DNA of 64,000 nt from Anthostomella pinea (lineage: Eukaryota; Ascomycota; Sordariomycetes; Xylariales; Xylariaceae). The notes below the pieces were generated by a model that was given only the letters and a program-made list of their open reading frames with translations, had not been told where the DNA came from and made no database searches. Below are positions 59,762 through 63,023 of this stretch, piece after piece. The first letter of the stretch is position 1, and the number at the start of each line of letters is the position of its first letter. The stretch covers positions 1,426,001 through 1,490,000 of the forward strand of contig CAUWAG010000007.1 of NCBI GenBank assembly GCA_963556695.1, in the 5' to 3' direction. A program made the translations under genes and the position numbers.

Positions 59762-61664
59762 ATGACAAAAACGGCATCGTCACATGTCGTCGATGAGAGG
59801 AAGACGCCCTCCACTCCGGACAACGTCACCACCGACGCAGACGGAGTTGCACTGGCCAGCAACGGTAACGTGATAGACGATGGTTTGCAACGGGGGTTGA
59901 AGAACCGACATCTGGTAAGTCCCGGCACCAAGCAGGAGAGCACGAAAGTCATGGCTGACTTTTCACTCGCTCAGCAAATGATAGCATTCGGAGGAGTAGT
60001 CGGGGCTTCGATCTGGTACGGCACAGGGTCCGCGATAGCATACAGCGGACCTATTGGAGCTCTCATCTGCTTCTTCATCATCGGCGTCGACGTCTTCTTC
60101 GTGATGCAGAGTCTCGGCGAGATGGCCACGCTGTTTCCTATCCAGGGGGCCTTCATCGAGCTGGCTGGACGGTTCATTGATCCTGCTTTGTCTTTCAGTC
60201 TTGGCTGGAACTATTGGGTAAGCCAAAGTCTCATCTTCTGCTGAAATGCTTGGTGGCTGTCTTATCATGACCAGCTAGCATATACTCTCCGCGCGCAGTT
60301 TCGTAACGACTAACAATTGGGCAGTGTAAGTAAATCGATGACTCTTCAAGTAGTGCAACAGCCATGCGTCGGGTAAAGTACTAACCAAAAGCGCCTTGCT
60401 GCCACCAGACCTATGGGTGACCAACATCGCGAACGACTACAACAATATCTCGCTCATCATGGGCCTCTGGACGACCGCCGTGCCGTCGTACGGCTGGATC
60501 CTCATCTTCTGGGCCGGCTTCCAGTGCACCTCGCTGCTGGGCGTCGTCGTCTACGGCGAGATGGAGTTCTACCTCGCGTGCTGGAAGCTGCTCTGCGTAG
60601 TCGGCGGCTTCCTCGTGGCCATCCTCGTCAACACGGGCGCCATAGGCGGCGAGTACATCGGCTTCCGCTACTGGCGCGACCCGGGCGCCATCGCGCACGG
60701 GATATCCGGCTTTGGCAAGACCTTTTTGTTGGCTGCCGTGTACTATGCCGGCACCGAGATGCTGGCGTTGACCGCGGCGGAGAGCAAGAATCCCAAGAGA
60801 GATTTGCCCAAGGCGATCCGACAGACCTTCTGGCGCATCCTGGTTATCTTCCTCGGCCTGGTCTTCTTCGCGGGCATCATCGTGCCGTACGACAGCGAGG
60901 GCTTACTGGCCGGCTCCAGCAAATCCGCGCTGTCGCCCTGGACCATCGCGCTCGTGCAGGCGGGGTGGTCCGGCGCCGGCAACCTCCTCAACGTGGTTAT
61001 GATCACGGCGCAGTTCTCGTCCGTTAATAGCGCCATCTACGTCGCGTCGCGCAGCCTCGTCGCGCTCGCCGTCAACGGCCGCGCTCCGCGCCTCTTCGCG
61101 CGCACCACCGCCAACGGCGTCCCCGTCGCCGCCATCGTCTTCTCCAACACGCTCGGCCTGGTCGCGCTGCTCAATATCGCGGCCAGCCCGGGGAAGGTAT
61201 TTTCATATTTAATCAACATCTCGGGCGCGGCGACGTTCGTCGCCTGGGCTTTCATCGACATCACGCACCTACGATTACGAAAAGCCTGGGCCGCACAAAA
61301 CCATACCCCGGAGGAGCTGCCGTACCGCGCCTTCCTGTTCCCTTACGGAACGTGGTTCGTCGTGTTCATCAACCTGTTTCTGGTGTTTATTTCTGGGTAT
61401 GAGGTCTTTGTCGGCGGGTTCGCGGCGGTGGATTTCGTGTTTTCGTATATCGTTCTTGTCATCTTTACGCTGCTGTTTCTGTTTTGGAAGGTCTTCAAGG
61501 GGACTAAGTTTGTTGACCTGATGGATGCGGATCTGGTGACGGGCAGACGCGAGGATTTGGTTCAGGGTGGGGTGCATGAGTTGGAGGGCGCGGATGGGCA
61601 TGGGCGTGAGAAGGGCGGGAGACCGCCGTGGTGGATCTTGGTCAAGAGATTCATCTTTAGCTGA
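59762..61664 (+). CDS. Amino-acid permease (APC superfamily, fungal YAT family)
   Basis: The best model has four exons, 59762-59914, 59975-60217, 60325 and 60409-61664, giving 550 residues. Intron 1 (60 nt, in frame, no stop) must be removed to join 'GLKNRHL' with 'QMIAFGGVVGASIWYGTGSA', the universal first-helix motif. Intron 2 (60218-60324) and intron 3 (60326-60408) both have standard donors, CTAAC branch sites and CAG acceptors, and leave a single T between them. That T plus AC forms Tyr and restores 'LGWNYWYLWVTNIANDYNN'. Later landmarks are 'VVVYGEMEFYLACWKLL', 'GTEMLALTAAESKNPKRDLP' and 'VASRSLVALAVNGRAPRLFA'. About twelve helices are present. It should import an amino acid at the plasma membrane by proton symport; the substrate is not predictable. 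Confidence 0.85.
60325..60325 (+). other. Candidate single-nucleotide exon in the permease gene
   Basis: The T at 60325 is preceded by an acceptor (GGGCAG, with CTAAC about ten bases before it) and followed at once by a donor (GTAAGT). Without it the permease frame runs into a stop (TGA) soon after 60409. With it, a Tyr codon is formed across the three exons and the conserved WNYWxLW sequence is restored. The alternative is a longer exon 2 ending with a poor GTCTCA donor, which would give WNYWVSQNLW. Confidence 0.6.
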
Positions 61665-62246: not shown

Positions 62247-62334
62247 AGCCGGGTTGGTACGGCCTAGCGAAATACTCTTACAAGTATTCTTACAAGGTAT
62301 TCTTAGGCACAGCGGTTCGATTCCTCTAGCGGCT
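62247..62334 (+). repeat. Pol III B-box-like repeat, copy 1
   Basis: This 88-bp copy starts AGCCGGGTTGGTACGGCCTA and ends TCTAGCGGCT. Its ends can pair over five bases (AGCCG with CGGCT). It contains GGTTCGATTCC, an exact match to the tRNA B-box consensus, and the following sequence is T-rich. I cannot draw a full cloverleaf, so it is not called a tRNA gene. Confidence 0.6.
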
Positions 62335-62695
62335 GACATTCTTTTCCTTTCAGCCCTCCCCACCCGAGGACTGGAGGCCTTGGTACCCTCGCCCCTTATG
62401 GAGGCATGAGTTGACTTCGGGAGCCATCATCATACATGTACGTAGCTAGCATACGTAGATAGATGTTGGACCGCTTGTCACGTCACATCGCTCCTGTGGC
62501 CCAGCGGACTGTCTCGCAGCTTCGCAGTAGGCAGTAGACGTTAAAGACTGCAACCAACCAACCAACCTCTCCACTCTCCTCTTTTCGTATAGAGATCTGC
62601 CACCTTGCGCACTTTTTGCCCATGTCCACCCTTTCCTTTTTGCAATGCCCATAGCCGTGTAGGGTATATAACTAAATTTAGCATGTAAATTTGGT

Positions 62696-62778
62696 AGCCA
62701 GGTTGGTACGGCCTAGCGAAGAGCGAAGTATTCTCACAAAGCATTCTTAGGCACAGCGGTTCGACTCCCCTAGCGGTT
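62696..62778 (+). repeat. Pol III B-box-like repeat, copy 2
   Basis: An 83-bp copy of the same sequence with the same head (GGTTGGTACGGCCTAGCGAA), the shared CATTCTTAGGCACAGCGG and a B-box GGTTCGACTCC. A T-rich tail with TTTTTCTTTTT follows. The flanks on both sides resemble those of copy 3, so the repeating unit is longer than the core. Confidence 0.6.
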
Positions 62779-62943
62779 GAAAATTTCTCTTTTTCTTTTT
62801 GTCCTTCCCACAAGGACTGTCTCTCTCCTTTCTCTTTTCATATTGAGCTGAGCCACCTGGTACGGTAGCCCGTTGCCCTTTGACACATGTTCATCCGTTC
62901 CTCCCTGCACATGGTATAGCTCTGTTTAGCATGTTAATCTGGT

Positions 62944-63023
62944 AGCCGGGTTGGTACGGTCTAGCAGCTTATATTTACACAGCGTTGATCATTCTAGGCA
63001 TAGAAAGTTTAATTCCTCGTTGA
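62944..63023 (+). repeat. Pol III B-box-like repeat, copy 3 (decayed)
   Basis: About 80 bp with the conserved head AGCCGGGTTGGTACGG and CATTCTAGGCA-like centre, but the B-box is reduced to an AGTTTAATTCC-like remnant. It is followed by a long T-rich tract near 63050-63070. It starts about 248 bp after copy 2. Confidence 0.5.

Follow-up and report, generated by a model that had tools for sequence, protein, structure and literature searches.

A probable one-nucleotide exon in an Anthostomella pinea amino-acid permease gene

In a 64-kb stretch of the Anthostomella pinea genome, called the window in the following, an amino-acid permease gene contains two introns that lie only one base apart, which raises the question whether this base is an exon. 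The gene runs on the + strand. Exon 1 (59762–59914, 153 nt, codons 1–51) starts with ATG and has an open frame, and its junction with exon 2, RHL|QMIAFGG, matches that of relatives, e.g., P0002. Intron 1 in between (59915–59974, 60 nt, GTAAGT...CTCAG) is retained in the published protein P0001 and absent from P0002, P0005 and P0007. Exon 2 (59975–60217, 243 nt, codons 52–132) has the 3' end ..AAC TAT TGG, i.e., it closes in phase 0 with the codon of Trp132.

Intron 2 (60218–60324, 107 nt) has the donor GTAAGC, a CTAAC branch site at 60310–60314 and the acceptor GGCAG, with 11 nt from branch A to AG. Intron 3 (60326–60408, 83 nt) has the donor GTAAGT, the branch site ACTAAC at 60380–60385 and the acceptor CACCAG, with 24 nt from branch A to AG. 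Between them stands a single T at 60325, preceded by AG and followed by GT (CAG|T|GTAAGT, 60322–60331). Re-reading the sequence thus bore out the two complete introns given in a preliminary description of this DNA. Two features count against an exon at this place: intron 3 would end at the second AG (60408), past an earlier AG at 60391 that lies 7 nt behind the branch A, and position −1 of its donor is T, the usual G being absent. Exon 4 (60409–61664, 1256 nt including the TGA stop) begins with AC CTA TGG GTG and would supply the rest of Tyr133 and the codons up to 550. The T would hence open the codon of Tyr133 (T|AC), an assignment to which frame enumeration, profile scores and conservation all point.

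With these exons joined, the coding sequence from the ATG at 59762 to the TGA at 61664 spans 1653 nt and encodes 550 amino acids with no inner stop. The predicted product is an amino-acid permease of family PF00324, which it matches with 386.6 bits over residues 50–500 (profile positions 1–465 of 470), above the curated Pfam cut-off of 24.6. The preliminary description had claimed that the T is needed for the frame, and this held: exon 2 joined straight to 60409 reads WNYWTYG* and stops at codon 136, whereas inclusion of the T gives WNYWYLWVTNIA with Tyr133 and a frame that is open throughout. Retention of intron 2 leads to a stop at codon 141, and retention of intron 3 to one at codon 135. 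Splicing errors should thus be unproductive, since skipping of the T or keeping of either intron brings a stop within nine codons.

We enumerated GT/GC-AG single-intron and GT-AG double-intron solutions with introns of at least 40 nt, donors between 60185 and 60419 and acceptors between 60200 and 60474. The 59 open-frame solutions listed comprised 14 with one intron and 45 with two. Only the model with the one-nucleotide exon placed a single residue between W132 and L134. We scored the products with a profile built from 119 relatives (120 listed of 673 matches, with the species' own published protein left out). The one-nucleotide-exon model ranked first of 60 sequences with 993.5 bits, by a margin of 7.4 bits, which is small and which we count as a caveat. 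It was followed by a model with a 4-nt exon (986.1 bits), one with a GC donor (984.5 bits) and one with a GTCTCA donor (982.5 bits).

The relatives agree with the spacing. Exactly one residue stands between W132 and L134 in 117 of the 119 listed relatives; Tyr is found in 113 of them, Ala in two and Phe in two, so the inserted T yields the residue expected of the family, as had been proposed. P0002 (Biscogniauxia), P0005 (Camillea) and P0007 (FL2044), at 82–84% identity, read WNYWYLWVTNIANDYNN. The two exceptions are P0097, which has a gap over the region, and P0120, where a long insertion begins at this point that looks like an annotation error. P0035, P0088, P0103 and P0120 have odd insertions at the site or just downstream of it, e.g., ITNEQYANMQQIAN, which look like missed introns.

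Support that is independent of fungal annotation comes from the solved LysP chain 9eyd, which reads GWNYWYNW and aligns gap-free at the site, and from bacterial loci. Among the best 80 of 176 such loci, a selected set because the motif was part of the peptide patterns used to retrieve them, the alignment was gap-free over query residues 126–142 in all 80; the site residue was F in 76, L in two and Y in two. Tyr therefore appears to be mainly fungal and the one-residue spacing general. Moreover, lgn, jgi or ena is the sole source for 17 of the listed relatives, and in every one of them the stretch is unbroken, with Tyr in 16 and Phe in P0112. Eight of these proteins begin exactly at Met53 and a ninth, P0062, slightly ahead of it, with their starts adjoining the position of intron 1. 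They are presumably intron-blind gene calls on genomic DNA and, taken as such, would stem from genes without both introns 2 and 3.

We also ran a protein search with exon 4 alone, aimed at gene models whose start lies within an intron at the site, and it returned 11 new proteins (P0121–P0131). P0124, a distant relative of 436 amino acids from jgi, starts with MVNCEGEVCSDMHQWITN, which suggests that an intron ends there about 5 nt past the position of intron 3 in A. pinea; from this start, the permease site may be prone to introns. In viral contigs, where orthologue DNA was sought, there was one pattern match and no relative.

Taken together, it is very likely that the T at 60325 is a genuine, constitutive one-nucleotide exon of a nuclear PF00324 permease gene, and splicing of this exon, as predicted from the genomic sequence, has a high probability of being real. 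Among other accounts, splice choices that add residues at the site leave the frame open. A GTCTCA donor would give WNYWVSQNLW, a 4-nt exon TTTC would give WNYWFHLW, and the deposited annotation has 22 residues here; P0120 likewise carries a long insertion. We nevertheless regard these choices as very improbable, because they conflict with the single residue seen in nearly all listed relatives and with the profile scores given above. Moreover, the alternative donors GTCTCA and GTAACG are weak, and the alternative acceptor at 60391 is 7 nt away from the branch A. The GTCTCA donor and the residues VSQN in place of Tyr had been named beforehand as findings that would speak against the exon; the former scored 11 bits lower, and the latter occurred in none of the 119 listed relatives.

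The published gene model does not contain the one-nucleotide exon. The deposited A. pinea protein Uu.00g123950 (P0001, 591 versus 550 amino acids) is identical to our protein outside two stretches, i.e., 20 extra residues that stem from retention of intron 1, and the 22-residue insertion HILSARSFVTTNNWAVALLPPD at the site. It scored lowest of the 60 sequences (933.5 bits), a deficit that is partly due to the retained intron 1. We conclude that this gene model is wrong in two places. The annotation was made with Augustus, GeneMark-ES and homology, and the searched passages of the genome paper mention no RNA-seq or transcript data (PMC10763133).

An assembly error or a recent frameshift would reduce the locus to one 191-nt intron with a base missing beside it. 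Single-base insertions and deletions occur in Nanopore-type data. The A. pinea assembly was made from Nanopore R10.4 reads alone and polished only with Racon and Medaka (PMC10763133). A missing base would, however, yield Tyr only if a T outside any homopolymer had been lost; a G lost from TTGGG would give Asp. The remainder of the 550-codon frame is intact. Furthermore, the 191-nt stretch contains the full set of branch site, acceptor, single base and donor, for which the chance expectation is about 5e-6 per 191-nt stretch, a figure that serves as a guide only since the pattern was written post hoc. We hence think it quite implausible that sequencing or mutation produced this layout.

In the 53.7-Mb genome, the pattern CTAACN{4,25}YAGNGTAAGT had three matches on both strands, compared with 11 for a backward control. 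By eye, the other two matches (L042 and L043) look like the ends of normal exons next to a donor, and their CTAAC falls within coding sequence. On both strands of the window, YAGNGTAAGT occurred once and the looser YAGNGTRNGT six times.

Least probable of all is a [D1,2] stwintron, in which intron 2 would be internal and split an external donor (G60217 plus T60325 GTAA) with no exon in between: the arrangement G|GTAAGC..CAG|TGT fits the requirements of such an element, and almost 300 sequence-similar [D1,2] stwintrons are reported from 14 Xylariales species (PMC12403724), yet the rebuilt donor would be GTGTAA, outside GURWGY and two bases before an intact GTAAGT, the product would be WNY* with a frame shift and a stop at codon 132, and the locus has neither the sequence-similar sister copies of the propagating kind nor the inner symmetry that marks some, not all, of them. 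Introns 2 and 3 showed no likeness to each other, as 364 of 500 shuffles reached their score in direct and 397 of 500 in inverted orientation.

If the T is an exon, how would it be spliced? The acceptor AG (60323–60324) and the donor GT (60326–60327) lie one base apart and therefore would not both be occupied simultaneously. A factor that occupies one of these two sites also covers the other, and sequential removal is hence most likely. Introns 2 and 3 would each be recognized separately by intron definition and be taken out in turn, and after either of them has left, the T would simply be the last or the first base of a normal exon. If intron 2 left first, the joint would read TGGTGTAAGT with two overlapping donors, of which the stronger GTAAGT would lead to Tyr and GTGTAA to a stop. 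Intron definition is described as the rule for splice-site pairing in ascomycetes (PMC12403724, PMC5639578), and a two-step view that combines it with recursive splicing was proposed for Arabidopsis APC11 (PMC4674806). Intron definition with removal of one intron after the other is thus the mechanism that we consider most likely for the permease.

The preliminary description had implied more novelty than the literature allows, because one-nucleotide exons are in print for the plant genes APC11 and VPS55 and for Fusarium CYP621A. The exon in CYP621A (Nelson and Syed 2026, PMC12940212), backed by transcripts, is called the first fungal case by its authors, so the A. pinea permease would be a further one. 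Both are nuclear genes of filamentous ascomycetes in which a lone base flanked by AG and GT brings the coding sequence back into frame within a conserved motif; both exons were missed by annotation pipelines, and an intronless relative served as length marker. CYP621A, in contrast, encodes a P450, has a G as the second base of a codon and is documented by 20 Fusarium orthologues and SRA reads, whereas the permease base is a T at the first codon position and is read from genomic sequence.

In Arabidopsis, the APC11 exon (Guo and Liu 2015, PMC4674806) has transcript proof. It is likewise constitutive and required for the frame, and the combined model of intron definition and recursive splicing was put forward for it; the differences are the plant host, a combined stretch of 422 nt, the base A and tests with reporter constructs. 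The VPS55 exon (PMC8831610) was also overlooked by annotations and has a GTRAGT donor downstream. Unlike the permease exon, it is described as conserved across land plants and alternatively spliced in some, on the basis of RNA-seq and RT-PCR.

Two kindred systems share the tight packing. Xylariales [D1,2] stwintrons also consist of two packed introns removed in turn by intron definition (PMC12403724, PMC5639578); their inner intron splits the outer donor with no exon base, while the permease has an unsplit donor and a single coding base that separates its two introns. In Ophiostoma mitochondrial rnl, neighboring introns are one exon base apart as well, but these are group II introns of an rRNA gene that are removed without a spliceosome (PMC12308204). 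Titles and abstract openings in the open-licence literature named no one-nucleotide exon in a permease or other transporter gene or in a Xylariales gene. The A. pinea exon would hence be a rare new example of a kind already reported from plants and Fusarium.

Regarding its origin, an older phase-1 intron (TGGT|AC) may have gained a neighbor one base upstream. Alternatively, a base at the exon edge may have been lost and a base of a long intron taken up, as was suggested for CYP621A by Nelson and Syed (PMC12940212). A bolder and rather doubtful version is that a new intron, inserted one base before the older phase-1 donor, made a sibling of a stwintron in which the inner intron adjoins the donor from outside, and that the T acts as a frame switch whose rate of skipping tunes permease output. 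If this were true, inclusion of the T would give the full transporter and its skipping an early stop. Each independent one-nucleotide case suggests that this limit has been reached repeatedly and missed by gene predictors; the deposited A. pinea protein, with 22 residues where its relatives have one, exemplifies such a miss. A fungal case with short introns also lends itself to an easy minigene test, which could settle the order of intron removal.

The intron pair was absent from all seven paralogues inspected in the same genome. By eye, those on C14, C12 and C7 and two on C9 are uninterrupted at the site. In L022 (C10) and L020 (C16), a single intron seems to lie upstream of the site by a few codons (GWS|YW and GWN|YALQW), i.e., at other positions. 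The 191-nt stretch had itself as sole match in the genome, which rules it out as a dispersed repeat.

A short dispersed repeat with GGTTCGATTCC does lie nearby, with neighboring copies at 62247–62351, 62696–62795 and 62944–62968. ARAGORN found no tRNA genes in the 64-kb window. The motif GGTTCGATTCC is similar to the B box of tRNA genes, a feature of tRNA-derived SINEs. Counting the repeat itself, the genome contained at least 40 scored matches to it, with identities of 81–100%.
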